Source: Acidobacteriota bacterium (GTDB taxonomy: Bacteria > Acidobacteriota > Aminicenantia > JBFLYD01). Taken from it: a stretch of 64,000 bases of DNA. The DNA is taken from positions 1-64,000 of the forward strand of contig JBFLYD010000065.1 in assembly GCA_040756905.1 (NCBI GenBank). Reading direction: 5' to 3'. A program made the position numbers and the translations under genes. The notes below the pieces were generated by a model. The model searched no databases. It saw only the letters and a list, made by a program, of their open reading frames with translations, and was not told the DNA's origin. Every line of letters starts with the position of its first letter. The first letter of the stretch is position 1. Positions 11,855 through 40,520 of the stretch are shown in pieces.

Positions 11855-11867
11855 ATTTTATATATTT

Positions 11868-12005: not shown

Positions 12006-12031
12006 CGTTCAAGCTTCCTCAATGGAAAATT

Positions 12032-12059
12032 TTGAGGGAACCAAAGGAATTGATATAAT
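12032..12059 (+). promoter_or_regulatory. Sigma-70-type promoter of the mscS-trehalose operon
   Basis: TTGAGG (12032-12037), a 16-base spacer, then a perfect TATAAT (12054-12059). Transcription would start near 12066, giving a leader of about 24 bases with AGGAGG just before the mscS ATG at 12090. Confidence 0.6.
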
Positions 12060-12089
12060 ACTTAGTGAATAAAATAGTAGGAGGTAAAA

Positions 12090-25109: not shown

Positions 25110-25685
25110 ATGCAGATAAAAAGAAATATTAAGTATGAATCAGAATTGGATAAAGAATTTATAAAAGAAGTTGCTTCCATGTATGGAGGAGAAGAGGTTT
25201 ATAACTGCATCCAGTGTGGAACATGCAGTGGAACCTGTCCTATTTCCCTTTACATGGATTATACGCCAAGAAGAATCATGGCAATGATAAGAAGTGGGTT
25301 TAAGGATGAAGTTCTGAAAAGCTTCACAATCTGGCTATGCTCTTCATGTTACTCCTGCACTGTTCAATGTCCAATGAATATAAAGATTACAGATATTATG
25401 TATGCTTTAAAGAGGATGGCTATTGAGGAAAATATATGTCCTCGAAAATTTCCAATTCCGGTTCTCGCAAGAGAATTTACAAAAATGGTCAGAAACTATG
25501 GAAGAATAAACGAAGGAAGGCTAACTACAAAACTTTTCTTTAAGTCAAATCCTTTTAAAATATTTAACTATTCAAACCTTGGGATGAAATTGTTTAAACT
25601 TGGGCGTATAAAACTCATGCCAGAGACAATAAAGAACCCTAAGGAAATAAAAACTCTTTTAAAAGGACTGGAGGGGAAAAAATGA
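25110..25685 (+). CDS. hdrC: HdrC-like heterodisulfide reductase subunit C
   Basis: HdrC carries two [4Fe-4S] clusters that pass electrons between the HdrA flavin and the HdrB active site. The cluster motifs are CIQCGTCSGTCP (C33, C36, C39, C43) and CSSCYSCTVQCP (C77, C80, C83, C87). Length 191 is normal for the soluble cytoplasmic type, with no membrane segment. AGGAGG precedes the ATG. It is the first gene of a 15-kb operon and overlaps hdrB. In a bacterium without coenzyme M/B chemistry the disulfide or other acceptor at HdrB is unknown. Confidence 0.92.
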   Translation: MQIKRNIKYESELDKEFIKEVASMYGGEEVYNCIQCGTCSGTCPISLYMDYTPRRIMAMIRSGFKDEVLKSFTIWLCSSCYSCTVQCPMNIKITDIMYALKRMAIEENICPRKFPIPVLAREFTKMVRNYGRINEGRLTTKLFFKSNPFKIFNYSNLGMKLFKLGRIKLMPETIKNPKEIKTLLKGLEGKK

Positions 25686-26545
25686 AAGAATATGCTTATT
25701 TCCCAGGTTGTTCTGTTAAAGGAACTGCTAAGGCTTATGAAGAATCCCTTTTGGCTGTGTTCAAAGAATTGGGGATTATTTGGAATGAGTTAGAAGACTG
25801 GAATTGCTGTGGAGCTACTATATATATGTCTGTGGATGAAACCATATCTTTTACTCTCTCATCAAGAAATATGGCCTTAGCAGAAAAAAATGGAAAAGAT
25901 ATTGTTGCTCCCTGTAGTGCTTGCTATCTTGTATTAAAAAAGACAAAAGATTACATCGAAAAATATCCTGATTTAAAAGAGAAAATTAAAAATAGTCTTA
26001 GCTCTATTGGACTCAGTTATTCAGGAAATACTATTGTAAAACATCCGTTGGAGATATTCGTTAATGATATGGGGTTGAATGAGATAAAAAGACATGTTAG
26101 GAAACCTTTAAAGGAAATGAAGATAGCGCCATATTACGGTTGTCAGATTGTCCGCCCTTATACGGATGTGGATAATCCAATTTATCCAGAGATAATGGAT
26201 TCTCTTTTAGAATCTATCGGAGCCAGTGTAGTGGAGTATCCTGTTAAAACGAGATGCTGTGGAGGATCTTTAACAGGAACCATTGAAGAAGTTGGGCTCA
26301 GACTAAATTACATCCTCATTGAAGAGGCAATTAAAAGGGGAGCGAATTGTATCGCAGTTCTATGTCCTCTCTGTCAATTCAACCTTGAAGCTTACCAGGA
26401 AAGTATAAACAAAATGTATAAATCCAATTTTAACATGCCCATTCTATATTTTACTCAGGTAATGGGTATGGCTTTTGGACTATCTAAACAATCATTGGGG
26501 ATGAAAAGATCAATCGTTTCAGCAGAGCATTTTTATCCAGTTTGA
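25682..26545 (+). CDS. hdrB: HdrB-like heterodisulfide reductase subunit B
   Basis: Contains two CCG domains, the cysteine-rich modules that hold the two non-cubane [4Fe-4S] clusters of HdrB. The first is FPGCSVK...WNCCGAT...PCSACY (about residues 7-85). The second is YYGCQIVRP...TRCCGGSLTG...LCPLCQF (about 150-240). All CCG cysteines seem present, so disulfide-type two-electron chemistry is possible. Its ATG overlaps hdrC (ATGA), and the next start is right after its stop. Confidence 0.92.
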   Translation: MKEYAYFPGCSVKGTAKAYEESLLAVFKELGIIWNELEDWNCCGATIYMSVDETISFTLSSRNMALAEKNGKDIVAPCSACYLVLKKTKDYIEKYPDLKEKIKNSLSSIGLSYSGNTIVKHPLEIFVNDMGLNEIKRHVRKPLKEMKIAPYYGCQIVRPYTDVDNPIYPEIMDSLLESIGASVVEYPVKTRCCGGSLTGTIEEVGLRLNYILIEEAIKRGANCIAVLCPLCQFNLEAYQESINKMYKSNFNMPILYFTQVMGMAFGLSKQSLGMKRSIVSAEHFYPV

Positions 26546-26556
26546 CGGAGGTAAAA

Positions 26557-27420
26557 ATGAAAAAAAATTTGGAAAAAAACGAAGACCTATGGATAGGTGT
26601 TTATATTTGTCATTGCGGGACTAACATTGCACCAAAAGTAAAAGTTGAAAAAGTCGCTGAATTTGCTTCAAAAATTGAAGGAGTTAAAGCAGCAAGAGAT
26701 TATAAATATATGTGTTCTGACCCGGGGCAAGATCTTATAAAGAATGACATCAAGAACTTAAACCTGAACAGGGTAGTTGTTGCTTCCTGTTCACCAGCCT
26801 TGCATGAGAACACGTTCAGAAGAGCCTGTGCTCAAGCTGGTTTGAATCCTTTCCTCTTTCAGATGGCAAATATCAGGGAACATTGTTCATGGGTTACAGA
26901 GGACTCTATTGAAGCCACTGATAAAGCTGAAAAAATTGTATCAGCGGCAATCAGAAGAGTTACTTGGCATGAACCACTTGAATATACAAAAGTTAAGATA
27001 AACCCAGATGTCCTTGTAGTTGGCGGAGGAATTACTGGAATCGAATCTGCACTAAGACTGGCAGGAGCTGGAAGAAAGGTGTATTTAGTGGAAAGAGAGC
27101 CGTCAATCGGAGGTCGAATGGGTGAGCTGGACAAGACATTTCCCACACTCGATTGTGCAGCATGTATATTAACTCCAAAGATGGGAGAAGTGAAAGGAAA
27201 GGAAAAAATTGTTCTCATGACCTATTCAGAAGTTGAAAATGTGTCAGGTTCGATTGGAGGCTTCAAGGTTAAAATTCATAAAAAACCGAGATATGTAAAG
27301 CTGGATGTGTGCACTGGCTGCGGGATTTGCTGGGAGAATTGCCCTGCATTTATAACCCCCTCCCAGAGAAAAATCGAAAGAGAAGGAGTGTTGATAGGGG
27401 AGAAAGTTTATGCAAAATAA
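26557..27420 (+). CDS. hdrA: N-terminal half of split HdrA (HdrA-N)
   Basis: HdrA carries the bifurcating FAD. Numbering is from an upstream TTG at 26542; I start at ATG 26557, with GGAGG 5 bases before it. Visible are the N-terminal cluster domain (GVYICHCGTNI; C58; ASCSPALHENTFRRACAQAG; HCSWV), the FAD Rossmann motif VLVVGGGITGIESALRLAGAG (157-177), the conserved PTLDCAACILTPKM, and the first ferredoxin motif CTGCGICWENCP (257-268). It ends at residue 292 whereas HdrA is about 650 residues. The missing half (second FAD segment and two ferredoxin sets) is encoded at 35266-37017 behind a different N-terminus. No stray stop or frameshift explains the end: downstream lies an R5 palindrome. Confidence 0.9.
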   Translation: MKKNLEKNEDLWIGVYICHCGTNIAPKVKVEKVAEFASKIEGVKAARDYKYMCSDPGQDLIKNDIKNLNLNRVVVASCSPALHENTFRRACAQAGLNPFLFQMANIREHCSWVTEDSIEATDKAEKIVSAAIRRVTWHEPLEYTKVKINPDVLVVGGGITGIESALRLAGAGRKVYLVEREPSIGGRMGELDKTFPTLDCAACILTPKMGEVKGKEKIVLMTYSEVENVSGSIGGFKVKIHKKPRYVKLDVCTGCGICWENCPAFITPSQRKIEREGVLIGEKVYAK

Positions 27421-27439
27421 CCAAACACCAAGTAATCTA

Positions 27440-27532
27440 AGGCACAAAGGCACTGAGGCGCATAGGCACAGAGGTTGTTTAATTTTTCATCCTTTGTGCC
27501 TTTGTCACTTTGTGCCTCTGTGCCTTTCTTTG
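27440..27532. repeat. R5 palindrome (GGCACAAAGG type), copy 1, directly after HdrA-N
   Basis: AGGCACAAAGGCACTGAGGC...AGGCACAGAGG (27440-27475) pairs with CCTTTGTGCCTTTGTCAC...CCTCTGTGCC (27491-27525). This long imperfect hairpin is built of a short degenerate motif. The second copy lies at 37017-37100. The two bracket the inserted module, 27567-37017. Confidence 0.75.
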
Positions 27533-27566
27533 TTTGTTGGAATTTGGTAATTGGGTATTTCTGTAT

Positions 27567-27926
27567 ATGATTCTTGAAGAGATAAAAAGAATACTTAACT
27601 GTGAGGTTATCTGTGGTGGAGACTCCATGAATACAGAAATAAAATATGCATGTGGTTCTGATCTGATGAGTGATGTTCTGGCCTATTTTAAACCCGGCTC
27701 TCTTCTTTTAACAGGGCTGACTAACATCCAATCTGTAAGAACTGCTGATATAGCTGAGGTTAAAGCTATTGTATATGTTCGAGGGAAAAGACCTGATAAA
27801 GATGCGGTAGATCTGGCCATAAAACTGAACATTCCTTTGCTATCAGCAAAATGTATGATGTATGAAGCCTGTGGTCTTCTTTATTCCCATGGCTTGCCTG
27901 GCGTTGGCGAAAAATCTAAAGGTTAG
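27567..27926 (+). CDS. DRTGG-domain protein (first copy)
   Basis: A 119-residue protein with the DRTGG-like fold: CGSDLMSDVLAYFKPGSLLLTGLTNIQSVRTADIAEVKAIVYVRGKRPD, then IPLLSAKCMMYEACGLLY. Domains of this type sit beside HydABC hydrogenase genes in clostridia and related anaerobes and are thought to be regulatory. I start at ATG 27567 (MILEEIKRIL), since an upstream in-frame extension lies in the R5 palindrome. It is separated by 5 bases from the ATPase gene. A paralogue is at 29682. Confidence 0.8.
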   Translation: MILEEIKRILNCEVICGGDSMNTEIKYACGSDLMSDVLAYFKPGSLLLTGLTNIQSVRTADIAEVKAIVYVRGKRPDKDAVDLAIKLNIPLLSAKCMMYEACGLLYSHGLPGVGEKSKG

Positions 27927-27931
27927 CAGAA

Positions 27932-28372
27932 ATGTCAGTTGAAAATATTCTGTGGGAAAAATTTAACATTACGGGAAGAGATTTTAAAAATGCTGGAAGT
28001 GTTTCAATAAAAATAAAAGAAATTCTCAAACAAGTTGGAATAAATTCTTCAATTGTAAGACGGGTGGCTATCGCTACTTATGAAGCAGAAATGAATGTAG
28101 TGATGTATGCTAATAAAGGAATTTTAAATTTTTCTCTTTCTCCTGAAAAAATTGAAATTAATGTAGAAGATGAAGGTCCAGGAATTGAAGACATAGAGCT
28201 TGCAATGCAGGAAGGATATTCCACTGCTACAGAAGAAATGCGGGAGATGGGTTTCGGAGCAGGGATGGGATTACCAAACATCAAGAAAAACGCAGATGAA
28301 TTCGAAATTTCCTCTGAGGTAGGCAAGGGAACAAAAGTTGGAATAATCATTAATTTAAAAAAAGAGACATAA
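27932..28372 (+). CDS. Anti-sigma/RsbW-like ATP-binding protein
   Basis: A small GHKL ATPase without transmitter domain: RVAIATYEAEMNVVMYANKG holds the N-box, IEINVEDEGPGIEDIELAMQEG the G1 box, and MGFGAGMGLPNIKKNADEFEISSEVGKGTKVGI the G2 region. RsbW-type proteins phosphorylate anti-anti-sigma factors or bind regulators. Here it is part of the conserved gene set preceding NuoE/NuoF-type hydrogenase subunits. It directly abuts the hydrogenase-like gene that follows. Confidence 0.85.
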   Translation: MSVENILWEKFNITGRDFKNAGSVSIKIKEILKQVGINSSIVRRVAIATYEAEMNVVMYANKGILNFSLSPEKIEINVEDEGPGIEDIELAMQEGYSTATEEMREMGFGAGMGLPNIKKNADEFEISSEVGKGTKVGIIINLKKET

Positions 28373-29680
28373 ATGGAACAATATTATCACTCAATCTATT
28401 TCGATGAAGAAAAATGCAATGGCAGAATGAGGTGCATGCGAGTTTGCCCGACTCAAGCAATTAGAATTAGAAACGGAAAAGCTAAAATGATCGAGGAGAG
28501 ATGTATTGATTGTGGAGAATGTACAACAACTTGTCCACAAAATGCCATTCTTCCCCTCACAGATTCATTTTCTGAACTTTCTAAGTTCAAATATAACATT
28601 GCTATTCCATCACCTGCCCTTTACGCTCAATTTGGTCGAGAAATCCTTCCTGATAAAGTCCTTGAAGGAGTAAGAAAGATTGGATTTGATGAGGCATACG
28701 ATGTAGCTCTGGCATGCGGTTCAGTAAGTTTCGCGATTCAAGAATACATAAGAGATTACAAAGGGCAAAAACCTCTCATTTCAAATTCCTGTCCGGTTAT
28801 TGTTCGATTAATCCAGGTAAAATATCCTGAATTGATAGATTTAATAATACCAATCGAACCACCGAGAGAAATAGCTGCAAGAGAAATGAAAAAGGGGAAA
28901 TCTAAAAAATTAGGGCTTAAGGAAGAAGAAATCGGTGCAATTTATCTTACTCCTTGCCCTGCAAAAATGATATCCATAAAACAGCCCGCAGAAGGGGGGA
29001 AGTCACATTTAGACGGGGCTATTTCAATTGCTGATGTTTATGCTCCTCTTCTTTCTGCAATGGAGGGTCTGAATAAACGGGAATATAAACAATCCTTAGA
29101 AAACATATGTATAGTTGGCATAGCCTGGTCCATAGCAGGAGGAATATGTAGAACACTTAGATTAAAGAACTCTTTGGGAGTTTCAGGTCTCTCCCATGTT
29201 ATCAAAATATTTGATGATGTAGTAAGTGGTAAATTAAAAAATATTGATTTTGTTGAAGCTTATGCGTGCATCGAAGGATGCGTCGGAGGTTCATTAACTG
29301 TAGAGAATATCTACATCTCTTATAATAAGATTTTAAAATTAATCGAGACCCTTGAGCTAAGAAAGAATAAAGCCTGTCCCGATATAAGGGAAATAAGAAG
29401 ATTATACAAAGAAGATTATTTCTTCATTAGAGAAAAAATAAACCCAAGACCTCTTAAGCCTCTCGCTGAAAACATCTCAGATGCTATAAAGAAGATGAAG
29501 GAAAAGGATGAAATATATCAGAGCTTGCCAAAGATTGATTGTGGGGTCTGTGGCTCTCCCACCTGTTTGGCATTTGCTGAAGATGTAGTTAAGGGAGAAG
29601 CAAAAATTTCAGATTGCATACTTATCTCATCAGAAAAATTTCTCAAAATAAAACAGGTTAGTAGAAAAGGAGAAAATTAA
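28373..29680 (+). CDS. Degenerate [FeFe]-hydrogenase-like iron-sulfur protein (sensory type)
   Basis: Two ferredoxin motifs open the protein. The first, CNGRMRCMRVCP (C15, C21, C25), lacks one cysteine, with R18 in its place. The second, CIDCGECTTTCP, is complete. The H-cluster domain follows. SNSCPVI (C140) replaces TSCCPAW, so the proton-relay cysteine is serine 139. TPCPAKM (C195) replaces MPCxxKxxE, losing the glutamate. EAYACIEGCVGGSL (C299, C303) matches L3. All four H-cluster-binding cysteines are kept. A C-terminal CGVCGSPTCLAFAEDVV...C415 [4Fe-4S] domain follows. Relatives in hyd operons are presumed redox or H2 sensors. Catalysis is unlikely, and a bound cluster is possible. Confidence 0.82.
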   Translation: MEQYYHSIYFDEEKCNGRMRCMRVCPTQAIRIRNGKAKMIEERCIDCGECTTTCPQNAILPLTDSFSELSKFKYNIAIPSPALYAQFGREILPDKVLEGVRKIGFDEAYDVALACGSVSFAIQEYIRDYKGQKPLISNSCPVIVRLIQVKYPELIDLIIPIEPPREIAAREMKKGKSKKLGLKEEEIGAIYLTPCPAKMISIKQPAEGGKSHLDGAISIADVYAPLLSAMEGLNKREYKQSLENICIVGIAWSIAGGICRTLRLKNSLGVSGLSHVIKIFDDVVSGKLKNIDFVEAYACIEGCVGGSLTVENIYISYNKILKLIETLELRKNKACPDIREIRRLYKEDYFFIREKINPRPLKPLAENISDAIKKMKEKDEIYQSLPKIDCGVCGSPTCLAFAEDVVKGEAKISDCILISSEKFLKIKQVSRKGEN

Positions 29681-29681
29681 A

Positions 29682-30032
29682 ATGAACTTAAATGAAATAA
29701 TAAAAAAACTTAATTTAGAGATAATAACCGCAAAAGATAGGTTAGATGTCCAGATAACAGGAGGATATGCCAGTGACCTTTTAAGTGATGTCATAGCTAA
29801 TACAGTAAAGGGAAATATCTGGCTTACATTACAGACTCATCAAAATATAGTAGCTGTTGCAATTTTAAAAGAACTTTCGGGAATAATACTTGTAAACAAT
29901 CGCAAGCCCGAAGAAGAAACTATAAAAAAAGCCCAACAAGAAAATGTTCCAATTTTAATAAGCAAATTATCCACTTTTGAGTTAGCAGGTCAATTATATC
30001 AGTTGGGAATAAAAGCATCACAAAAATGTTAA
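29682..30032 (+). CDS. DRTGG-domain protein (second copy)
   Basis: A 116-residue paralogue of the protein at 27567-27926. It has TGGYASDLLSDVIANTVKGNIWLTLQTHQNIVAVAILKELSGIILVNNRKPEEET and then VPILISKLSTFELAGQLY. The order DRTGG, ATPase, hydrogenase-like, DRTGG, PHP is the one seen in clostridial hyd operons. Its last codons overlap the PHP gene start by 7 bases. Confidence 0.8.
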   Translation: MNLNEIIKKLNLEIITAKDRLDVQITGGYASDLLSDVIANTVKGNIWLTLQTHQNIVAVAILKELSGIILVNNRKPEEETIKKAQQENVPILISKLSTFELAGQLYQLGIKASQKC

Positions 30033-30763
30033 AACCCTTTAAAGCTGATTTACATATACATTCATGCTTATCCCCCTGTGCTGATCTGAATATGTCACCC
30101 ATAAAAATAATAAATAAAGCTACGATGGAGAAAATAGAGATTATTGGTATCTGTGATCATAATTCTTCCGAGAATGTAGTGGCATTTACAAAAGTTGCAG
30201 AAACCAAAAACATCAAAGTTTTACCTGGAATGGAAGTAACTTCAAAAGAAGAAGTGCATATACTTGCGTTATTCGAAAAAGCTGAATCTGCTTTAAAGCT
30301 TCAGGAGATCATATATGAGAATCTTTCTGGCGAGAATGATGAAGAGGCTTTCGGGACTCAAGTTGTTGCAAATGAACTTGATGAAGTCGAAGGTTTTAAT
30401 AATAAACTTTTAATTGGAGCTACTGAACTTTCAGTAGAAGATGTGGTTGATTTTATTCACTCTTTTAATGGACTTGCCATTGCCTCTCATGTAGATAGAG
30501 AAGGATTCAGCATAATCGGTCAGTTAGGTTTTATCCCAGAAAATCTTAAATTAGATGCTTTAGAGATATCTCCAAAACTTTCAAATATAGAAGCAAGGAA
30601 AATATTTAATCAATATGAGAGTTTCCCATTTATTTTCTCTTCAGATGCTCACAAGCTGGAAGAGATAGGAAAGGGCGTAACCTCTTTTCTTTTAAAAGAG
30701 CCTACTTTAGATGAGATAAAAAAGGCTTTAAAGAGCGAAGAAGGAAGAAAGGTCATTAACTGA
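30026..30763 (+). CDS. PHP-domain metal-dependent phosphoesterase-like protein
   Basis: Begins FKADLHIHSCLSPCADLNMSP, the HxH metal motif of PHP enzymes, followed by IIGICDHNSSENV, LPGMEVTSKEEVHILALF, IASHVDREGFS and FIFSSDAHKLEEIG, which together supply the usual trinuclear-metal ligands. It is 245 residues long. Its function in the hydrogenase gene set is unknown; a nucleotide or phospho-signal phosphatase is a reasonable guess. It overlaps the DRTGG gene, and the next gene starts one base after its stop. Confidence 0.85.
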   Translation: MLKPFKADLHIHSCLSPCADLNMSPIKIINKATMEKIEIIGICDHNSSENVVAFTKVAETKNIKVLPGMEVTSKEEVHILALFEKAESALKLQEIIYENLSGENDEEAFGTQVVANELDEVEGFNNKLLIGATELSVEDVVDFIHSFNGLAIASHVDREGFSIIGQLGFIPENLKLDALEISPKLSNIEARKIFNQYESFPFIFSSDAHKLEEIGKGVTSFLLKEPTLDEIKKALKSEEGRKVIN

Positions 30764-30764
30764 A

Positions 30765-31307
30765 ATGGAAGATTTATCTCTTCACATTCTGGACATAGCT
30801 GAGAACTCCATTTCTTCTGGTGCAAAAGAAATTAAAATCAAGATCTCAGAAAATTCAGAAAAAGACATTCTTTCTTTAGAAATAATAGATAATGGAAAAG
30901 GGATGGATGAGGAAACTGTAAGAAAAGTGCTTGATCCATTTTTTACAACAAGGACAACAAGAAGGGTGGGGCTTGGATTGCCACTCCTTGCTGAGGCAGC
31001 AAGAATGAGCGGGGGGGATATATCTATTAAGTCAAAATTGGGGAAAGGAACAAAAATTACTGCTACATTTCAGCTCAGACATATCGACAGAAAGCCCCTT
31101 GGGGATATGGTAAGTACCTTGATTACACTCATTGCAGCAAATCCTTCACTGAAATTTATATACATACATCAAAAGAACGGAAGTAAATTTATCTTTGATA
31201 CTAATAATTATAAAAAATTAATAAAAGATAATTTTATAAAACCTGAAACCATCAGGGAAATAAAAAAGATATTGAAGAATGGATTGGACAATTTATCAAG
31301 GAGGTGA
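30765..31307 (+). CDS. GHKL ATPase (histidine-kinase-like, no transmitter domain)
   Basis: A 180-residue protein with the kinase ATP lid: LHILDIAENSISSGAKEI (N-box), LEIIDNGKGMDEETV (G1), VLDPFFTTRTTRRVGLGLPLLAEAARMSGG (F and G2) and KLGKGTKITATFQL. It has no H-box or sensory domain. This and the DRTGG/RsbW/PHP genes form the conserved regulatory set of HydABC operons. Its end overlaps the first possible NuoE start. Confidence 0.85.
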   Translation: MEDLSLHILDIAENSISSGAKEIKIKISENSEKDILSLEIIDNGKGMDEETVRKVLDPFFTTRTTRRVGLGLPLLAEAARMSGGDISIKSKLGKGTKITATFQLRHIDRKPLGDMVSTLITLIAANPSLKFIYIHQKNGSKFIFDTNNYKKLIKDNFIKPETIREIKKILKNGLDNLSRR

Positions 31308-31311
31308 GCAA

Positions 31312-31767
31312 ATGTTTTCAATGGAAAAGGTCGATAGTATCATTGAAAGGTATAAGGGTGAAAAAAGTTCCCTTATAGCCATGCTTCAAGACCTTCAGGC
31401 TGAATTCAATTATCTTCCAAAAGATGCCCTTAAGAAAATCTCAGAAAACACTAACATCCCAATAAGTAGAATTTATAGTGTTGTAACTTTTTTCAAGGCT
31501 TTTAGTCTAAAGCCTAAAGGTAAACACATCATAAAAGTATGCTTGGGGACAGCATGTCAGATTAAACAAGGTGCAAAAATATTAGAAAATTTTGAAAAGG
31601 AATTAAATATAAAAGAAGGTGAGACAACCAAAGATATGAAATTCAGCCTCCATAAGGTTTATTGTTTAGGATGCTGTGGACAAGCTCCAGCTTCAATAAT
31701 AGGAGAAGATGTTTATGGATATTTAACTCCTTATAAGATAAAAAAAATTATCACAAAATTTAAGTAG
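31312..31767 (+). CDS. NuoE/HydC-like [2Fe-2S] thioredoxin-fold subunit
   Basis: The small subunit of NADH-dehydrogenase-type flavoprotein modules. SLIAMLQDLQAEFNYLPKDAL and IPISRIYSVVTFFKAFSLKPKGKH are the typical N-helix region. Cluster ligands are CLGTACQIKQG (Cx4C) and YCLGCCGQAPA (Cx3C). I start at ATG 31312 because AGGAGG lies just upstream; an earlier ATG at 31279 has no ribosome site. It would pair with the NuoF-like protein at 32186. Confidence 0.9.
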   Translation: MFSMEKVDSIIERYKGEKSSLIAMLQDLQAEFNYLPKDALKKISENTNIPISRIYSVVTFFKAFSLKPKGKHIIKVCLGTACQIKQGAKILENFEKELNIKEGETTKDMKFSLHKVYCLGCCGQAPASIIGEDVYGYLTPYKIKKIITKFK

Positions 31768-31778
31768 GAGGTCTTAAT

Positions 31779-32165: not shown

Positions 32166-32185
32166 AAAAATAAGGAGGAAAAAAA

Positions 32186-35100
32186 ATGGAGAGGATGCGT
32201 AGATTAGAGCTTTTAGTGTGTACTGGCACCGCCTGTGTTTCAAAGGGTGCCTTTGATCTTTTAGAAATTTTTAAAAAAGAAATAGAGAAAAAAGGACTCA
32301 AGGACGAGGTTGCTGTAATACCTACAGGATGCAATAGTTTATGTGGAAAAGGTCCATTAATCCTTGTAGAACCCGATGGAATCTTTTATCAAAGTGTGAA
32401 AGAAGATGATGTTCCCTATCTTGTTGAAGAACATTTGTTAAAAGGAAGACCTGTAAAAAAGCTCATGTATACTCCTGCCTTAGAAGAGATACCGATCCCA
32501 AGGATGAGAGATATTGATTTTTACAAGAGGCAAATTCTTATTGTTTCAAGAAACAGGGGACTTATTGACCCAGAAAAGATAGAAGAATATTTAGCAATGG
32601 ATGGATATACTGCTCTCGAAAAGGCCTTTACTCAGATGACGCCTGATCAAATAATAGAAGAAATCAAGAAATCTGGACTCAGGGGAAGAGGTGGAGCAGG
32701 ATTTCCTACTGGTCTCAAATGGGAGATAACGCGTAAACAGCCTGGAGATGAAAAATACCTGATTTGCAATGGCGATGAAGGAGATCCAGGAGCGTTTATG
32801 GATCGTGCAATTCTTGAATCAGACCCTCATACTGTTTTAGAAGGGATGATTATTGGAGCAAAGGCAATAGGCGCAAACCACGGTTTCTTTTACATCCGAG
32901 AAGAATATCCCTTGGCCTTAAAAAGAGTTTATACTGCGATAGATCAAGCTCGAGAATATGGTCTCTTAGGAGATAATATAATGGGAACAGAGTTCAGTTT
33001 TGATGTAACAGTTGTAAAAGGAGCAGGCGCATTTGTTTGCGGTGAAGAAACAGCTTTAATAGCATCCGTAGAAGGCAGACTTGGTGAACCGAGATACAGG
33101 CCACCTTTCCCAGCAGAAAAAGGAGTGTGGGGTAAACCTACATGCATAAACAATGTAGAGACCTGGGCTAATATCCCAGCTATAATCAATAGAGGGGGAG
33201 ATTGGTTCTCTACCATCGGCACAATCACAAGCAAAGGGACTAAAGTTTTTTCAGTGGCAGGGAAAATAAGAGATGCAGGACTTATAGAAGTGCCAATGGG
33301 GATAACACTTGGGGACATAATTTTTGATGTTTGCGGTGGTATTCCTCAAAATAGAAAGTTCAAAGCCGTCCAGATTGGAGGACCATCTGGTGGATTTTTG
33401 CCAGCAGAACTTCTCAATCTTCCAATAGACTATGAAAGCCTTACAGAAGCTGGAGCTATAATGGGTTCTGGAGGACTGGTTGTTATGGATGAAAATACTT
33501 GTATAATAGATGTTGTCCGCTTTTTCCTTTCTTTTTTGAAAGATGAATCCTGTGGTAAATGCACTCCCTGCAGAGAAGGAACAGTAAGATTATTTGATAT
33601 CCTCACAAAAATATCTGAAGGTAAAGGAAGCATGGAAGACCTTGAGCTCCTCGAAGATATTGGTAGATATATAAAAAATTCAGCCTTCTGTGGATTAGGT
33701 ACATCCGTGCCTAATACAGTATTGACAACAATAAGATACTTTAGAGATGAATATGAGGCTCATATAAAAGATAACCGCTGTCCCGCATCGATTTGTAAAG
33801 AATTAAGTATAACCCCTTGTATTGAAGCCTGTCCTATAGATACACAAGCTCCTGCGTATATTTCATATGTGGCTGAAGGGAGATTCAAAGAAGCTTTTAA
33901 TGTTATAAGAGAAGACAATCCACTGGCTACTGTTTGTGCAAAAGTGTGTGATAGTCCTTGCGAGATAAGATGCAGAACAGGAGAAACTGGGGATGCAATA
34001 GGTATCAGGAGTCTTAAGAGGTTTGTACTTGATTATGGAAGAGAAAAAGGATGGAAACCTCCAGTGGTTAAAGGTTCAAAAAGATATGAAAAAGTTGCAA
34101 TTGTTGGCAGCGGTCCGGCAGGTCTTATGTGTGCATGGGAGCTTGTGAAGCTTGGGTACAGACCAACAATTTTTGAAGCCGAGGAGACTTTAGGAGGAAT
34201 GTTAACTCAAACCATTCCTGAATTCAGACTTCCAAAATCTGATGTGGATCAGGAGATAGAAGCTATCAGGAAAAGTGGAGTTGAGTTTAAAACGGGAATA
34301 AGGATTGGCATTGATAAAACACTGGAAGACCTTTTCAAAGAAGGATATAAATCTATATTTTTAGCTACAGGAGCCTATAAAAATATAAAACTTGGAATCC
34401 CAGGTGAGGATTCAGCTGGAGTGATAGACCCTATAGAATTTCTAAAAGCAGCAAAGAGAGGGAAGAGGCCAAAGATAGGGAAAAAAGTTGCTGTGGTAGG
34501 AGGTGGAAATACTGCAATAGATGTGGCAAGAACAGCCTGGAGATTGGGCTCTGATGTTACAATTTTCTATCGAAGAACACAGACTGAAATGCCTGCAAAT
34601 AGAGAGGAAATTTTGGAAGCTCTGGATGAGGGCATAAAAATTGAACTTCTTGTAGCTCCAGTGGAAATTATATCAGAAAATGGCAAACTGAAGGCCATTA
34701 AACTCATAAGAATGGAACTCGGAGAATTTGATAAGGATGCAAGAAGAAAGCCAGTTCCAAAAAAAGGATCTGAATTCTTAATTGAAATAGATACATTAAT
34801 TCCAGCAATTGGTCAACAGCCTGAAATTCCTTTTGCTAAAGATGGTTATTCTCTAAATTTATCAAAGTGGAATACCATTGAAGTCGATTTCAAATCTCTT
34901 CAAACAAATGTGGAAGGTATTTTTGCAGGTGGCGATGTTGTCACTGGTCCTGCTACAGTGATTGAGGCAATGGGAGCTGGAAAAAGAGCTGCTTACTATA
35001 TTCATAGATATTTACGCTCATTAAAAGGTGAACCTGTAAAAGAAAAAGAAATAACTCAAATATATGTCAAACCGTACGAGCTTTCTGATGAAGAACTTGA

Positions 35101-35269
35101 AGAGATAATTTCAGCCTATCGTCCTGAAGTTTCTTATTTAAATATAGAAGAAAGAAGAGGAAATTTTAAAGAAGTTGCCAAGGGGCTTACTAAAGAACAA
35201 GCAATAAAAGAGGCAAAAAGATGTATAAGATGTGATTTAGAAAGGATGAAAAAGGAGGTGGCCATATGA
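32186..35269 (+). CDS. NuoF/HydB-like NADH-binding subunit fused to a GltD/NfnB-like flavoprotein
   Basis: This 1027-residue protein has several modules. Residues 1-95 are a thioredoxin-fold [2Fe-2S] domain (C12, C17, C49, C53). About 110-530 is NuoF: GRGGAGFPTGLKWE (167-180) for FMN/NADH, GDEGDPGAFMDR, an SLBB region, and CGKCTPCREGT plus C502 for the [4Fe-4S] cluster. About 531-625 is a GltD-type cysteine domain (CIEACPIDTQAPAYI; CAKVCDSPCEIRC). About 635-980 has two Rossmann motifs, VAIVGSGPAGLMCAWEL and VAVVGGGNTAIDVA, for FAD and NAD(P)H. The C-terminus ends EAKRCIRCDLERM. The protein could link NADH at NuoF with a second pyridine nucleotide. It overlaps the next gene by 4 bases. Confidence 0.9.
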   Translation: MERMRRLELLVCTGTACVSKGAFDLLEIFKKEIEKKGLKDEVAVIPTGCNSLCGKGPLILVEPDGIFYQSVKEDDVPYLVEEHLLKGRPVKKLMYTPALEEIPIPRMRDIDFYKRQILIVSRNRGLIDPEKIEEYLAMDGYTALEKAFTQMTPDQIIEEIKKSGLRGRGGAGFPTGLKWEITRKQPGDEKYLICNGDEGDPGAFMDRAILESDPHTVLEGMIIGAKAIGANHGFFYIREEYPLALKRVYTAIDQAREYGLLGDNIMGTEFSFDVTVVKGAGAFVCGEETALIASVEGRLGEPRYRPPFPAEKGVWGKPTCINNVETWANIPAIINRGGDWFSTIGTITSKGTKVFSVAGKIRDAGLIEVPMGITLGDIIFDVCGGIPQNRKFKAVQIGGPSGGFLPAELLNLPIDYESLTEAGAIMGSGGLVVMDENTCIIDVVRFFLSFLKDESCGKCTPCREGTVRLFDILTKISEGKGSMEDLELLEDIGRYIKNSAFCGLGTSVPNTVLTTIRYFRDEYEAHIKDNRCPASICKELSITPCIEACPIDTQAPAYISYVAEGRFKEAFNVIREDNPLATVCAKVCDSPCEIRCRTGETGDAIGIRSLKRFVLDYGREKGWKPPVVKGSKRYEKVAIVGSGPAGLMCAWELVKLGYRPTIFEAEETLGGMLTQTIPEFRLPKSDVDQEIEAIRKSGVEFKTGIRIGIDKTLEDLFKEGYKSIFLATGAYKNIKLGIPGEDSAGVIDPIEFLKAAKRGKRPKIGKKVAVVGGGNTAIDVARTAWRLGSDVTIFYRRTQTEMPANREEILEALDEGIKIELLVAPVEIISENGKLKAIKLIRMELGEFDKDARRKPVPKKGSEFLIEIDTLIPAIGQQPEIPFAKDGYSLNLSKWNTIEVDFKSLQTNVEGIFAGGDVVTGPATVIEAMGAGKRAAYYIHRYLRSLKGEPVKEKEITQIYVKPYELSDEELEEIISAYRPEVSYLNIEERRGNFKEVAKGLTKEQAIKEAKRCIRCDLERMKKEVAI

Positions 35270-37017
35270 TTAGAGTGGAAATAAATGGCAATAAATTTGA
35301 AACTGAAAAAGAAGTAACAATTCTTCAGGCTTGTGAAAAGCTTGGAATTCCCATTCCAACATTATGTTATCATCCTTTACTTGAGCCCTATGCAGCTTGC
35401 AGAGTCTGTGTTGTCGAAATCACCCATAGAGGTGCAACTAAGATAGTGACTTCCTGTAACACAATGATAGAGAATGGAATGATTGTAAACACTGAGTCCC
35501 CAGAGGCATTGAGTGCAAGAAGGATGAACTTAGAACTTTTAATGGCTCAGGCTCCTGCTGCAGAAGTAGTTCAACAGATTGCAAAGGATATGGGGATTGA
35601 GAAAACAAGGTTCCCTATTAGAAAGCCTGAAGAGAAGTGCATTCTATGTGGACTCTGTGTAAGAGCATGTGAACAGGTGGTGGGAGCCAATGCCATAGGA
35701 TTCAAATACAGAGGAGTTGATAGAGAAGTTGCACCTCCTTTTGATGAACCATCTGAAAAATGCATAACCTGTGGAGCTTGTACATTTTTCTGTCCAACTG
35801 GAGCAATTTCCTTGAATGATTTCTTTGGAAGAAAAATTATTCATTCAGAACTTTTCCTCGGCCCTCCAAAAGCGATAAGGGTGCCTACTCTTACAGCTGT
35901 TCCAAATGTGCCAATAATTGACCCGGAGTATTGTATTCATTTTAAGACGAATAACTGCCAGCTCTGTGTTAAAGTATGTGAGCCAGGGGCGATCGACCAT
36001 GCGATGAAGGAAGAATATGAAGAAATAGAAGTGGGAAACATCGTTCTTTCTACTGGCTATGAACTTTTTGATTGTAGGAAGATTCCAGCATACAATTATG
36101 GAAAGCTAAACAATGTGATTACAAGTCTTGAGTTTGAGCATCTCTGCCATGCCAGTGGTCCCACTGGGGGAAAGATAAAAACAACAGATGGAAAAGAACC
36201 TGAGGCGATAGGGGTTGTCCATTGCGTTGGAAGCAGGGATAAAAATTACCATGAATATTGCTCAAAAATCTGTTGTATGTATGCCTTAAAATTTTCGCAT
36301 CTTATAAGGGAAAAAACTAATGCTCATATTTACGAATTTTACATTGATATGAGAGCCCCTGGAAAAGGATATGAGGAGTTCTATAACAGAATGCTACAGG
36401 AAGGAGTTACGTTCATAAGAGGAAAAGTGGCAGAGATTACAGATGTGGCTCTTATTCCTGAAGAAGAGGGTAAATTGGTAATTCGCTGTGAAGATACACT
36501 GGCAGGAGTTATAAGAAGAATACCGGTTGATATGGCAGTTCTCTGCCCTGCTATAATTCCAAGGAAGGATTCTGAACAGGTCGCAAGAATATTCGGAATA
36601 GGATGCGGAAATGATAAATTTTTCAGAGAACAGCATCCCAAATTGGGCCCTATTTCAACTTTAACAGATGGAATATTTATTGCAGGTGCATGTCAGAGTC
36701 CAAAAGACATTCCTGAAAGCATTGCCCAAGGAGCAGGAGCTGCTGCTGGAGTTCTATCGATGGGGGAAGAATTTATAATTGAACCCATATATGCAGTTAT
36801 AGATGAAGAACTCTGCGCAGGATGCAAAATATGCATTGGAGTTTGTCCATATGATGCCATCTCCTACAATGGAGAGAAAAAAATAAGTGTTGTAAATGAA
36901 ACACTCTGCAAAGGTTGTGGTGCCTGTGTAGCAGCTTGCCCTTCAAGATCTTCATATCAGAAAGGATTCAGGGATGAACAGATCCTTGCAGAGATTGCAG
37001 GAGCAATTTCCATTTAA
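35266..37017 (+). CDS. Fusion of NuoG/HydA-like Fe-S N-terminus with the C-terminal half of HdrA
   Basis: Residues 1-78 are a plant-type [2Fe-2S] domain (C34, C45, C48, C64). Residues 125-135 and 166-176 are two [4Fe-4S] motifs (CILCGLCVRAC; CITCGACTFFC), as in NuoG/HydA but without the His-ligated cluster or the H-cluster domain. From about 198 the sequence is HdrA: GPPKAIRVPTLTAVPNVP, C223-C238, IVLSTGYELFDC, NVITSLEFEHLC, VVHCVGSRDKNYHEYCSKIC, FYIDMRAPGKGYEEFYNR and DGIFIAGACQSPKDIPESIA, then CAGCKICIGVCP and CKGCGACVAACP. This is the half missing from 26557-27420. Together they should rebuild one FAD site. AGGAGG precedes the ATG. Confidence 0.9.
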   Translation: MIRVEINGNKFETEKEVTILQACEKLGIPIPTLCYHPLLEPYAACRVCVVEITHRGATKIVTSCNTMIENGMIVNTESPEALSARRMNLELLMAQAPAAEVVQQIAKDMGIEKTRFPIRKPEEKCILCGLCVRACEQVVGANAIGFKYRGVDREVAPPFDEPSEKCITCGACTFFCPTGAISLNDFFGRKIIHSELFLGPPKAIRVPTLTAVPNVPIIDPEYCIHFKTNNCQLCVKVCEPGAIDHAMKEEYEEIEVGNIVLSTGYELFDCRKIPAYNYGKLNNVITSLEFEHLCHASGPTGGKIKTTDGKEPEAIGVVHCVGSRDKNYHEYCSKICCMYALKFSHLIREKTNAHIYEFYIDMRAPGKGYEEFYNRMLQEGVTFIRGKVAEITDVALIPEEEGKLVIRCEDTLAGVIRRIPVDMAVLCPAIIPRKDSEQVARIFGIGCGNDKFFREQHPKLGPISTLTDGIFIAGACQSPKDIPESIAQGAGAAAGVLSMGEEFIIEPIYAVIDEELCAGCKICIGVCPYDAISYNGEKKISVVNETLCKGCGACVAACPSRSSYQKGFRDEQILAEIAGAISI

Positions 37018-37100
37018 GGCACAGAGGCGCAAAGTGGCAAAGGCACAAAGGACAAAACATACTCTGTGCCTATGTGCCTTAGTGCCTTTGTGTCTTAGAT
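37017..37100. repeat. R5 palindrome (GGCACAAAGG type), copy 2, directly after HdrA-C
   Basis: AGGCACAGAGGCGCAAAGTG...GGCACAAAGG (37017-37051) pairs with CTCTGTGCCTATGTGCCTTA...GCCTTTGTGTCTTAG (37062-37100). It lies between the fusion gene and mvhD within the operon and shares the motif of copy 1. Confidence 0.75.
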
Positions 37101-37127
37101 TATTGGATATTTCTAATAGGAGGTATT

Positions 37128-37556
37128 ATGAGTAATAATGGTAAAGATTTCAGTCCAAAGATAATAGGATTTTTATGTAGATGGTGCTCTTATCAGGGAG
37201 CGGATTTAGCTGGGACGAGTAGAATTCAATATCCTCCAAATCTAATTCCGATAAAAGTAATGTGTTCAGGAAGAGTGGACCCATCCTTTGTTTTAAAAGC
37301 CTTTGAAATGGGAGCAGATGCTGTTGCCATATTTGGATGCCATCCTGGGGATTGCCATTATCAGGAAGGAAACTATAAAGCCTTGAGGCGATATACACTT
37401 CTTTTGAAAATGCTCGATCAGATAGGAATCGATAGAAGAAGGCTAAAGTTAGAATGGGTCTCTGCTGCAGAAGGAGAAAAATTTGCCCGATGTGTTTCTC
37501 AAATTTCTAAGGAGATAAAAGCTTTAGGTCCATTGAAATATAGAAAGGAGACATAA
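37128..37556 (+). CDS. mvhD: MvhD-like [2Fe-2S] subunit linking hydrogenase to Hdr
   Basis: MvhD joins the [NiFe] hydrogenase to HdrA. Conserved pieces are IIGFLCRWCSYQGADLAG, LIPIKVMCSGRVDPSFVLKAFEMGADAVAIFGCHPGDCHYQEGN and RRRLKLEWVSAAEGEKFA. Cysteines in LCRWC, VMCSG and GCHPGDC provide the cluster ligands. Length 142 is normal for a stand-alone subunit. AGGAGG lies 6 bases before the ATG. Its position after HdrA-C is the canonical hdrA-mvhD order, which supports the idea that HdrA was once continuous here. Confidence 0.92.
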   Translation: MSNNGKDFSPKIIGFLCRWCSYQGADLAGTSRIQYPPNLIPIKVMCSGRVDPSFVLKAFEMGADAVAIFGCHPGDCHYQEGNYKALRRYTLLLKMLDQIGIDRRRLKLEWVSAAEGEKFARCVSQISKEIKALGPLKYRKET

Positions 37557-37557
37557 A

Positions 37558-38517
37558 ATGGCGAAGCCAAAAGTAGCATTCTACTGGTGTGCCTCCTGTG
37601 GAGGGTGTGAGGAAGCAGTGGTAGACCTGGCTGAAGATATATTGAAAGTAGTAGAAGCAGTTGACATAGCTTTCTGGCCAGTTGCATTAGACATAAAGAA
37701 AAAAGATGTGGAAGGTATGGAAGATAAATCTATTGGAGTTTCTTTTATAAATGGAGCAATTAGGCTATCCGAACAGGAGGAAATGGTAAAGCTCCTGAGG
37801 AGAAAATCAGGGTTGATTGTAGCATTTGGTAGCTGTGCCCATCTTGGAGGAATTCCTGGACTTGCTAATCTTTATGAAGTAAATCAGATATTTGAAAGAG
37901 CTTACTTTACATCTCCATCAACTCATAACCCTGAAAAGATTCTCCCTTCTCAGGAAACAGATGTCCCTGAAGGAAAGCTAACTCTTCCAAGATTTCTTGA
38001 TAGAGCTTATGCCTTAGACCAGGTGATAGATGTTGATTATTATCTTCCTGGATGTTCAGTACCAGCAGACTTGATAATGAATGCTGTGAAAGCTATCCTC
38101 GAGGGAAAGCTTCCTCCTAAGGGAACAGTTTTATCTCCAAATAAATCCTTATGTGATACATGCAAGAGAAACGAAACAAAGCCAGAAAAGCTCAAGATTA
38201 AAAAAATATATAGACCTTATGAGATAGAAATAGACCCTGAAAAGTGTTTCCTTGATCAGGGGCTTATATGTCTGGGTCCAGCCACAAGAGGAGGATGCGG
38301 AGAAAGATGTATAGAAGCTAACATGCCATGCAGAGGATGCTTTGGCCCTACAGATCAGGTGGAGGATCAGGGAGCAAAATTTCTATCAGCCTTTGCGTCG
38401 ATAATAGATTCTAATGATGAAAAAGAAATTCAAAAGATAATAGATACCATAGCTGACCCTGTTGGAACTTTTTATAGATTCTCCCTTTCCAAATCTATAT
38501 TAAAAGGAAAAATTTAA
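37558..38517 (+). CDS. mvhG: MvhG-like [NiFe] hydrogenase small subunit (group 3)
   Basis: The small subunit binds the Fe-S chain beside the [NiFe] site. FYWCASCGGCEEAVVDL (C11, C14 and C17) begins the proximal cluster, LIVAFGSCAHLGGIPG gives the next ligand, and VDYYLPGCSVPADLI the fourth. Later CLGPATRGGCGERC and MPCRGCFGPTDQV supply medial and distal clusters. There is no twin-arginine signal or membrane anchor, so it is cytoplasmic as in group 3c MvhG. It starts two bases after the mvhD stop. Confidence 0.92.
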   Translation: MAKPKVAFYWCASCGGCEEAVVDLAEDILKVVEAVDIAFWPVALDIKKKDVEGMEDKSIGVSFINGAIRLSEQEEMVKLLRRKSGLIVAFGSCAHLGGIPGLANLYEVNQIFERAYFTSPSTHNPEKILPSQETDVPEGKLTLPRFLDRAYALDQVIDVDYYLPGCSVPADLIMNAVKAILEGKLPPKGTVLSPNKSLCDTCKRNETKPEKLKIKKIYRPYEIEIDPEKCFLDQGLICLGPATRGGCGERCIEANMPCRGCFGPTDQVEDQGAKFLSAFASIIDSNDEKEIQKIIDTIADPVGTFYRFSLSKSILKGKI

Positions 38518-38527
38518 GGAGGAAAAA

Positions 38528-39988
38528 ATGTCAAGAAAGATAACTATCGACCCAATTACAAGGTTAGAAGGTCATGGAAAGATTGAAATATTTCTCGATG
38601 ATGAAGGAGATGTAAAAAATGCCTATCTCCAGGTTCCAGAATTGAGGGGATTTGAACAGTTTGTTGTTGGAAGACCTGCTGAGGAGATGGCGAGAATAAC
38701 TCCAAGAATATGTGGCGTCTGTCCCACTGCCCATCATATGGCTTCTACAAAAGCTTTAGATGACCTTTTCAAGGTTGACCCCCCTCCTGCAGCAAAAAAA
38801 ATTAGGGAGCTTTTCTATTCAGTATTTATGCTTGAAGACCACACATTACACTTTTTCTTTTTGGGAGGCCCTGATTTTGTTGTTGGACCCTCAGCTCCTG
38901 CTGCAGAAAGAAATATACTTGGAGTTTTAGGAAAAGTTGGACTCGAGATAGGAGGAAAGGTAATAAAAATAAGAAGAGAATGCAGGGAATTGATGACCAT
39001 GATGGCTGGAAAAGTTATCCATCCTGTTTTTGGACTTCCGGGAGGAATATCTAAGGGAATAAAAAAGGAAGAAGCTGAGAAAATCCAGGAAGTGGCAAAA
39101 GGAGGAGTAGAGTTTGCAAAATTTGCCCTGAAAATTTTTGAGGATGTGGTTTTAAAAAATAAAGAATATGTCGACCTCATAACAGGAGACATTTATTATC
39201 ATAAAACATACTCTATGGGCCTTGTTGATGGGTATAATAAAGTAAATTTCTACGATGGAGATATCAGGGTTGTAAATCCTGATGGGAAGGAATATGTGAA
39301 GTTTAAAGCTCAGGATTATCTTAAACATGTTGCTGAGCATGTTGAGCCATGGAGTTACATAAAATTTTTGTATCTAAAAAATGTGGGATGGAAAGGATTC
39401 GTAGATGGAATTGATAGCGGAGTATACAGGGTTGCTCCTTTAGCAAGGTTGAATACCTCCGATGGCATCGCAACTCCTCTGGCCCAGACTGAATATGAAA
39501 GAATGTATGAAACATTGGGAGGGAAACCTGCCCATTTTACCCTTGCTTTCCATTGGGCCAGGCTAATAGAGTCTCTCTATGCAGCTGAAAACATGCTAAA
39601 ATTATCACAGGATCCAGAAATCACTGACACAAAAATAAGGAACATCCCAACTACCACTCCAAAAGAGGGCATAGGAGTTGTGGAAGCACCAAGAGGAACA
39701 CTTTTTCATCATTACAAAACTGATGAAAAAGGAATCATAGAAGAAGCAAACCTCATTGTAGGTACTCAGAACAATTCAGCTGCTATAAACATGGGAATTC
39801 AGAAAGCAGCTAAAGCTCTAATTAAAAAGAATAAAGTTGATGATGGAATTTTAAACATGATTGAAATGACTTTCAGAGCTTATGACCCATGCCATGCTTG
39901 TGGAACTCATTCTCTCCCAGGTCATCTTCCTTTGATTATAAGAATTTTTAATTCAAAAGGGGAACTCCTTCGACAGATTAAAAATTAA
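38528..39988 (+). CDS. mvhA: MvhA-like [NiFe] hydrogenase large subunit (group 3c-like)
   Basis: Holds the [NiFe] centre. The N-terminal ligands are RICGVCPTAHH (C62, C65). The C-terminal ligands are DPCHACGTH (C455, C458), so the active site is intact. Maturation should remove the 25 residues after H461 (SLPGHLPLII...). EGHGKIEIFLDDEG and ELRGFEQFVVGRPAEEM are typical of the MvhA/FrhA group. Length 486 fits. The next gene encodes the endopeptidase expected for this cleavage. Partnership with HdrABC/MvhD genes points to group 3c; a phylogeny would settle it. Confidence 0.92.
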   Translation: MSRKITIDPITRLEGHGKIEIFLDDEGDVKNAYLQVPELRGFEQFVVGRPAEEMARITPRICGVCPTAHHMASTKALDDLFKVDPPPAAKKIRELFYSVFMLEDHTLHFFFLGGPDFVVGPSAPAAERNILGVLGKVGLEIGGKVIKIRRECRELMTMMAGKVIHPVFGLPGGISKGIKKEEAEKIQEVAKGGVEFAKFALKIFEDVVLKNKEYVDLITGDIYYHKTYSMGLVDGYNKVNFYDGDIRVVNPDGKEYVKFKAQDYLKHVAEHVEPWSYIKFLYLKNVGWKGFVDGIDSGVYRVAPLARLNTSDGIATPLAQTEYERMYETLGGKPAHFTLAFHWARLIESLYAAENMLKLSQDPEITDTKIRNIPTTTPKEGIGVVEAPRGTLFHHYKTDEKGIIEEANLIVGTQNNSAAINMGIQKAAKALIKKNKVDDGILNMIEMTFRAYDPCHACGTHSLPGHLPLIIRIFNSKGELLRQIKN

Positions 39989-40007
39989 AAATTGGGTCTT
40001 TTTCAAA

Positions 40008-40520
40008 ATGAGAAAGAACTACAAAAAAAATTTTCTGATACTTGGGCTGGGAAATGAGATTCTTAAAGATGATGGGGTCGGAATTTTTGCAGTAAGATCC
40101 CTTAAAGATAGAGTTGGAAAAAATGTAGATTTGGAGGAAAGCTCTGAATCAGGGTTGACATTACTTGATATAATCCTTCCATATAAAAGAGTTTTGATTA
40201 TCGACTCCATAAGAAAGGAGGAAAAAGAACCAGGGACTATTTATGAATTTGATTTGAAAGACTTGTCAGTTTCCCCATCCCCCTCTCCCCATTATTTGGG
40301 GCTTCCCCTTTCTCTTTTACTGGCAAAAAAATTAAACCTTAAAACACCAGAAACAATAAAAATTCTTGCTGTAGAAATAGGTCATCCAATTAAAATGGGA
40401 GAGGGACTTTCCCCTGGAATTAAGAAAGTAATTCCAACACTTATAAAAAGAGCAGTAGAAATAATTAACGAATGGAAAGAACGTGAAAAAAATAAAGAAA
40501 AACTTGAAGTAATTTATTAG
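40008..40520 (+). CDS. [NiFe] hydrogenase maturation endopeptidase (HyaD/HycI family)
   Basis: Cleaves the C-terminal peptide of the large subunit after Ni insertion. FLILGLGNEILKDDGVG (residues 9-25) contains the first metal-binding acid (E18) and the GxGNxxxxDDG motif. LEESSESGLTLLDII and VLIIDSIRKEEKEPGTI carry the second ligand (D in IIDS). The usual third ligand appears as GHPIKMGEGLSPG near 126-138. It is 170 residues long, the last intact gene of the operon, and lies 19 bases from mvhA. Confidence 0.9.
   Translation: MRKNYKKNFLILGLGNEILKDDGVGIFAVRSLKDRVGKNVDLEESSESGLTLLDIILPYKRVLIIDSIRKEEKEPGTIYEFDLKDLSVSPSPSPHYLGLPLSLLLAKKLNLKTPETIKILAVEIGHPIKMGEGLSPGIKKVIPTLIKRAVEIINEWKEREKNKEKLEVIY

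Follow-up and report, generated by a model that had tools for sequence, protein, structure and literature searches.

A split HdrA joined to a Bfu-type NADH module in an Acidobacteriota hdr-mvh operon

Introduction

The operon at 25110-40520 of a 64,000-nucleotide stretch of the genome of an anaerobic Acidobacteriota bacterium (contig JBFLYD010000065.1; this whole stretch is referred to as the window) holds the genes of an Hdr-Mvh [NiFe] hydrogenase complex, and its hdrA gene is interrupted by genes resembling the bifurcating HydABC-type enzymes (Bfu family), which use reduced nicotinamide adenine dinucleotide (NADH). This raises the question whether the two hdrA fragments still form one flavoprotein, and whether the whole operon encodes a single enzyme. 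An initial annotation had proposed one complex in which H2, NADH, ferredoxin and a disulfide acceptor meet on a two-chain flavin adenine dinucleotide (FAD) site. Open reading frame (ORF), Pfam and NCBIfam searches recovered every gene listed there, in the same order and on the same strand. The observation is thereby confirmed and its interpretation partly supported: sequence comparisons indicate that the architecture is genuine and recurs, that it has apparently not been described before, and that the structural case for it is strong.

HdrA is divided between two chains

Against the NCBIfam model HdrA2 (777 positions), the first fragment, HdrA-N, covers positions 2-257 (E 9e-109), and a protein encoded further downstream covers 264-640 (E 1e-119), its residues 1-184 being a HydA/NuoG N-terminal part. 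About 8.4 kb separate the two halves. MvhD picks the model up at 644-774, after the end of this fusion protein. Aligned to the crystallised HdrA 5odc, the two chains correspond to residues 3-260 and 244-649. By these alignments they are complementary HdrA halves, and hdrA is broken after its first ferredoxin motif with the remainder placed before mvhD, as the initial annotation had described. A genome search returned no second HdrA besides the split pair.

HdrA-N ends with the motif CTGCGICWENCP followed by about 25 more residues. A tail of about 20 amino acids (aa) with the pattern P..R.I..G, present in all split-type relatives, replaces the usual continuation of HdrA. In the fusion, the HdrA alignment starts at residue 164, at the second (last) [4Fe-4S] motif of the HydA/NuoG N-terminal part, so the joint sits on a cysteine motif; the match is clear from residue 198 on. 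This slightly corrects the joint assigned in the initial annotation. More specifically, motif 1 of the inserted ferredoxin of HdrA (C257, C260, C263, C267) lies near the end of HdrA-N and motif 2 (C223, C231, C234, C238) follows the BfuA clusters in the fusion, indicating that this ferredoxin is divided over two chains. Since each motif of a two-cluster ferredoxin supplies the fourth ligand to the cluster of the other, HdrA-N and the fusion can reasonably be inferred to share a cluster pair.

The HdrA domain set (N-terminal domain, FAD domain, inserted and C-terminal ferredoxin) is complete over the two chains jointly, and not in one protein. E356 and K409 of 5odc mark the FAD of bifurcating HdrA (PMC9430772); the aligned fusion residues E291 and K342 are invariant in 33 sequences, and HdrA-N has ten cysteines that do not vary among 17 sequences. 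A structural model of the fusion (mean predicted local distance difference test (pLDDT) score 75.8, uncertain linker at about 188-214) matched HdrA structures and, separately, HydA-type structures on one chain in a fold search. The proposal that HdrA-C takes the place of the [FeFe] domain is supported.

On the Hdr-Mvh side, the HdrB motif C-x(31-40)-CC-x(33-42)-C-x2-C is present twice, MvhD, MvhG and MvhA are all encoded, and MvhA ends in DPCHAC, which carries Ni ligands. The genome yielded no further [NiFe] large subunit.

A Bfu core joined to the second half

Residues 6-540 of NuoF match best to 7t2r_B, the HydB subunit of the bifurcating NiFe-HydABCSL (E 1.8e-231), and keep the B2-ligand motif H-x5-C-x4-C at residue 526. 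Matches to PF01512, PF10531 (below its curated cut-off) and PF10589 account for the flavin mononucleotide (FMN) domain, SLBB and the 4Fe-4S cluster B1. BfuC (NuoE) is present, and fusion cysteines at 34-64, 125-135 and 166-176 supply the BfuA A1/A2 clusters. The BfuA part carries no Cys3His motif and fits best to the small BfuA of Wor-Bfu (9mqx_A, root-mean-square deviation 1.5 over 185 columns).

The remainder of NuoF (residues 543-1017) is a GltD domain resembling the one in Nfn-Bfu/Stn (9bov_A). It stands in place of the BfuB C-terminal ferredoxin domain (IPR017896, clusters B3/B4), for which the window NuoF gave no Fer4 dicluster match. Because of this replacement, the phosphorylated cofactor NADPH may take the place of ferredoxin there, and the window NuoF would probably use NADP(H) through its GltD tail. 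GltD tails on NuoF also occur in loci L038, L046 and L158, and several relatives, for example L048, retain the two-motif ferredoxin domain. Ferredoxin as a partner, as first proposed, fits such relatives and is doubtful at this site in the window.

Two further NuoE/NuoF cores are encoded in the same genome (L152, G000:C57; L153, G000:C44). One includes an 802-aa NuoG-type protein and lies next to FNR-like and GltD/NfnB-like genes, and the other adjoins an apparent glutamate-synthase-like protein of 530 aa.

The insert is composite

The initial annotation took the whole insert as a HydABC gene set without its catalytic domain. This holds for the HydBC-like Bfu core, but not for the segment from DRTGG to GHKL, which is missing from several relatives (L050, L052, L053, L057); the insert as one unit was accordingly rejected. 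The DRTGG/HydS/PHP/GHKL genes are a separable cassette and the insert is composite. The cassette gene first called HydA-like does contain the Fe_hyd_lg_C domain, and its protein is of HydS type rather than HydA, with SNSCP where TSCCP is expected. It is the only Fe_hyd_lg_C match in the genome. As no HydF match above the cut-off was found there, the protein probably carries no H-cluster, and an active [FeFe] hydrogenase is unlikely.

The arrangement recurs with different gene complements

With the window fusion as query, an HdrA-C match was found in 52 of 297 genomes of the phylum, and the full fusion was clear in many. A family alignment as query placed the fusion in 20 of 396 sampled phylum genomes from 11 families, counting those matches that begin at position 1-2 and lie in frames of roughly 530-640 aa. 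Metagenome-assembled genomes labelled Bdellovibrio (L057), Sumerlaeota (L059) and Dehalococcoidia (L058) carry it as well. Wherever the locus is complete, hdrA-N lies upstream in the same operon, so that the short HdrA near a NuoG-HdrA fusion suggested as a search target does recur; the exception is L058, where a full-length HdrA adjoins the fusion in place of HdrA-N.

The gene maps form a series. Ordinary hdrCBA-mvhDGA operons (L138, L139, L141) and, in the same phylum, a single-chain hdrA with a GltD insert followed by mvhDGA (L137, L140) stand beside the order hdrCB-hdrA_N-nuoE-nuoF-nuoG::hdrAC with Mvh genes to the contig limits and no cassette (L050, which breaks off inside mvhG, L052, L053, L057). 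The split operon with the cassette is seen in the window, L040-L046, L054, L055 and L059 (truncated at a contig end), and in L038 without HydS. This series indicates that the cassette is separable and that one HdrA region accepts two different NAD(P)H modules.

A second family (L157-L160) encodes proteins of 1076-1102 aa in which NuoG-N::HdrA-C is followed by a second HdrA (HdrA'). In three of these four loci, an HdrA FAD half that has lost the N-domain and kept its DCxxC motif is fused to NuoE in one ORF. One HdrA of this family has no N-domain and the other no Cys197 motif, a complementary loss that resembles the HdrA heterodimers proposed for anaerobic methanotrophic archaea (ANME; PMC9012536). 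These fusions constitute the strongest sequence evidence for both HdrA halves on a Bfu core, and suggest that each half can be tied covalently to the NADH module.

At L157, HdrBC and 2-oxoacid-oxidoreductase-like genes adjoin the fusions. Short hdrA-N, nuoE, nuoF and fusion matches at L038 708-2046 (G101), upstream of the intact operon, are perhaps a decayed duplicate. An apparent HdrB::HdrA-N fusion in L053 was rejected, as the upstream part of this single ORF is out of the HdrB frame.

The fusion arose more than once

In HdrA-C trees, the majority of fusions cluster with HdrAs from the same phylum, and the L058 fusion is nested among Dehalococcoidia HdrAs. A single clade for all fusions, and with it a single origin, was rejected by the approximately unbiased (AU) test (p 0.0001) on an HdrA-C tree that held a few stray long-branch rows. 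This points to at least two origins, with an independent Dehalococcoidia copy.

A hairpin-forming repeat, GGCACAGAGGCACAAAG, found twice in the genome, splits the window operon into three blocks. Relatives with the same gene order do not have it, so the repeats were rejected as an insertion scar; they are possibly mRNA-processing hairpins.

One complex or several

We consider it likely that the products of the operon assemble into one soluble Hdr-Mvh-Bfu complex, in which HdrA would consist of HdrA-N and of HdrA-C carried behind BfuA. The complementary halves, the intact and conserved flavin and Fe-S sites, the covalent tie between HdrA-C and BfuA, the further covalent fusions in relatives and the recurrence in 20 genomes support the single complex first proposed, as do the minimal cassette-free operons (hdrCB-hdrA_N-nuoEF-nuoG::hdrAC-mvhD(GA)).

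In such a complex, MvhAG would exchange electrons with H2, and MvhD would hand them through the HdrA C-terminal ferredoxin domain to the two-chain FAD. One branch would then lead through HdrC and HdrB to a disulfide-type acceptor, as in HdrABC-MvhAGD, and the other through the HdrA-N/HdrA-C ferredoxin and the BfuA clusters to the FMN of NuoF. In ordinary HdrA this second branch exits by the inserted ferredoxin to free ferredoxin; here, it would be rerouted into the Bfu core. At the FMN, NAD(H) would react together with ferredoxin in relatives, whereas its partner in the window would probably be NADP(H), reached through the GltD tail. As BfuA sits exactly at the second exit of HdrA, we propose that the low-potential arm feeds the Bfu FMN. 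We hold only tentatively, and at slightly less than an even chance, that two bifurcation sites thus lie in series, the low-potential arm of the HdrA FAD being wired via the two-chain ferredoxin into the Bfu FMN. If so, H2, a disulfide, NAD(H) and ferredoxin or NADP(H) would be coupled at once, and the inserted ferredoxin of HdrA would be a general docking port, repeatedly fitted with different NAD(P)H modules. The direction of electron flow, the acceptors and genuine bifurcation at one flavin or the other are likewise proposals. Since MvhA belongs to the only hydrogenase found in the genome, the complex probably serves to keep H2 in balance with the pools of NAD(P)H, ferredoxin and thiols, running either way.

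Several points weigh against this picture. The window NuoF is without a ferredoxin-docking domain, which makes ferredoxin at that site doubtful. The split operon occurs without Mvh genes in two relatives (L048, L049), so H2 is not an obligatory part. A single fusion clade is rejected, weakly, even when L058 is left out (AU p 0.013), which implies a history of repeated fusion, reversal or recombination. When HdrA-N is modelled by itself, only its N-terminal domain is confident and the FAD half falls largely below pLDDT 60, although this would fit a need for the partner chain. Lastly, the case is built on sequence and predicted structure.

The best surviving alternative is a plain bifurcating NiFe-Bfu hydrogenase, a published enzyme type (PMC9304861), in which HdrA-C would be a wire from Mvh to BfuA, the FAD would be non-bifurcating and HdrBC would be a remnant or a regulatory side arm. 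The closeness of NuoF to HydB of NiFe-HydABCSL agrees with it. We nevertheless regard it as unlikely, given that E291, K342 and the HdrA cysteines are invariant, that HdrB keeps both catalytic CCG motifs and that the complete operons seen retain hdrC and hdrB. Still less probable are two complexes encoded in one operon, an Hdr-Mvh enzyme assembled from the HdrA halves and a loosely interacting NuoEF dehydrogenase: in their favour, the cassette and the Mvh genes are present or absent independently of each other, but BfuA is covalently fused to HdrA-C, and the second family has the HdrA FAD half covalently fused to NuoE. An assembly error or decayed gene, suggested by repeats that occur just twice in the genome and flank the insert at both borders, is refuted by conserved residues and by the same arrangement in about 20 independent genomes of several phyla, at 50-72% identity and with no such repeats.

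Relation to known enzymes

The preferred Hdr-Mvh-Bfu complex shares HdrC, HdrB, the HdrA parts, MvhD, MvhG, MvhA, the FAD and cluster residues and the flanking gene order with HdrABC-MvhAGD of methanogens. It differs in that HdrA is two chains, the second headed by BfuA, and in the added NuoE and NuoF; nothing points to the heterodisulfide CoM-S-S-CoB as its substrate. With the Bfu family (HydABC-type; NiFe-HydABCSL, Wor-Bfu) it shares the NuoE/NuoF core with the B2 ligand motif and a BfuA that fits 9mqx_A, whereas BfuA here bears half of HdrA and the window NuoF has GltD for the ferredoxin domain. Unlike for the [FeFe] hydrogenase HydABC, no H-cluster domain with maturases was found, the HydS-like gene being the single Fe_hyd_lg_C match of the genome. 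FlxABCD-HdrABC and MetVF-HdrABC-MvhD also tie HdrABC to NADH metabolism, but with other NADH modules and with HdrA unsplit between genes. In the Bam complex, BamE is the HdrA-like subunit.

Four Bfu enzyme types have been described, none with a BfuA carrying half of HdrA (PMC9304861). Bam-Bfu (class II benzoyl-CoA reductase, BamBCDEFGHI) holds Bfu and HdrA modules in one complex (PMC9304861) and is a precedent for joining the two; it acts on benzoyl-CoA, has no [NiFe] hydrogenase described, and lists BamE and BamI as separate subunits. No gene for the tungstopterin subunits BamBC was found by ORF and Pfam searches in 25110-40520. NAD(P)H modules also break HdrA at the inserted ferredoxin or thioredoxin reductase (TrxR) domain in ANME-1 HdrA9-11, where NfnB is inserted in the ferredoxin domain (PMC9012536), and in Moorella, where GltD interrupts HdrA (PMC9430772). 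There, a single chain contains the insert; here, two genes encode HdrA and the inserted module is Bfu. Stn/Nfn-Bfu transhydrogenase likewise joins GltD to a Bfu core (PMC10482914), but on the NuoG-type subunit instead of NuoF and with no Hdr or Mvh. A literature search, with most subscription papers outside its reach, found no description of a split HdrA, a BfuA::HdrA fusion or an Hdr-Mvh-Bfu operon. The joined form thus remained as unfamiliar as the initial annotation had held, but with the Bam precedent and the published NfnB inserts at the same site qualifying its novelty.

If correct, the proposed complex would bring HdrA and Bfu, two of four known families of bifurcating machinery, together with a [NiFe] hydrogenase, through a split and a fusion inside the catalytic flavoprotein. 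That the exact HdrA site, the inserted ferredoxin, takes different NAD(P)H modules suggests how such complexes get built. It also makes testable whether the low-potential arm of HdrA can feed another flavin rather than free ferredoxin, and how Hdr-Mvh enzymes outside methanogens connect to the NADH pool; minimal ten-gene versions are available for expression.

Gene content and further observations

The features of the operon are collected in Table 1. For the first DRTGG gene, the sequence makes ATG at 27567 a likelier start than TTG at 27510.

Table 1. Features of the hdr-mvh operon (window positions) and, in the last row, the fusion genes of locus L157.
Feature	Position	Strand	Description
hdrC	25110..25685	+	4Fe-4S dicluster domains; syntenic homologues in relatives
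hdrB	25682..26545	+	PF02754, two stretches; both CCG (noncubane [4Fe-4S]) motifs intact
hdrA-N	26542..27420	+	292 aa; N-terminal domain, FAD-binding half of TrxR domain, first inserted-ferredoxin motif, conserved tail
Hairpin-forming repeat, copy 1	27421..27524	.	just 3' of hdrA-N; predicted hairpin
DRTGG-domain protein 1 (cassette)	27567..27926	+	PF07085; start corrected to ATG
RsbW-like HATPase (cassette)	27932..28372	+	PF13581
HydS-like protein (cassette)	28373..29680	+	Fe_hyd_lg_C domain PF02906 and PF04060
DRTGG-domain protein 2 (cassette)	29682..30032	+	PF07085
PHP-domain protein (cassette)	30026..30763	+	PF02811, PF13263
GHKL ATPase (cassette)	30765..31307	+	PF02518
nuoE / BfuC (HydC-like)	31279..31767	+	PF01257, E 2e-51
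Thioredoxin-like [2Fe-2S] protein	31779..32165	+	PF01257 weak; fdxn_Clost, E 3e-10; in most relatives
nuoF / BfuB with C-terminal GltD (NADPH-type) tail	32186..35269	+	7t2r_B and 9bov_A matches
nuoG-N (BfuA)::HdrA-C fusion	35266..37017	+	583 aa; HdrA2 264-640; FeFe_hydrog_A6 1-208; PDB; fold search
Hairpin repeat, copy 2	37018..37106	.	just 3' of fusion gene
mvhD	37128..37556	+	PF02662, E 2.5e-52; HdrA2 model 644-774
mvhG, [NiFe] hydrogenase small subunit	37558..38517	+	VhuG, E 1.7e-61
mvhA, large subunit	38528..39988	+	VhuA, E 5e-121; sole one found in genome
Hydrogenase maturation protease	40008..40520	+	PF01750
L157 fusions	10366-13593 and 7567-8484		second-family NuoG-N::HdrA-C::HdrA' and HdrA-FAD-half::NuoE

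The genomes of the two relatives with Mvh-less operons (L048, L049) additionally carry an Mvh-linked copy. Furthermore, mvhA of some relatives contains an in-frame TGA (L038 14560-14950, G101; L055 14690-15000, G274), at exactly the second cysteine of the N-terminal RICGVC motif, and an mvhA TGA in the same domain occurs at G195:C59:929-1165. SelA was not found in the genome of the window, which uses Cys, and is present in the genomes with a TGA-containing mvhA, where the TGA codon possibly specifies an N-terminal selenocysteine Ni ligand.

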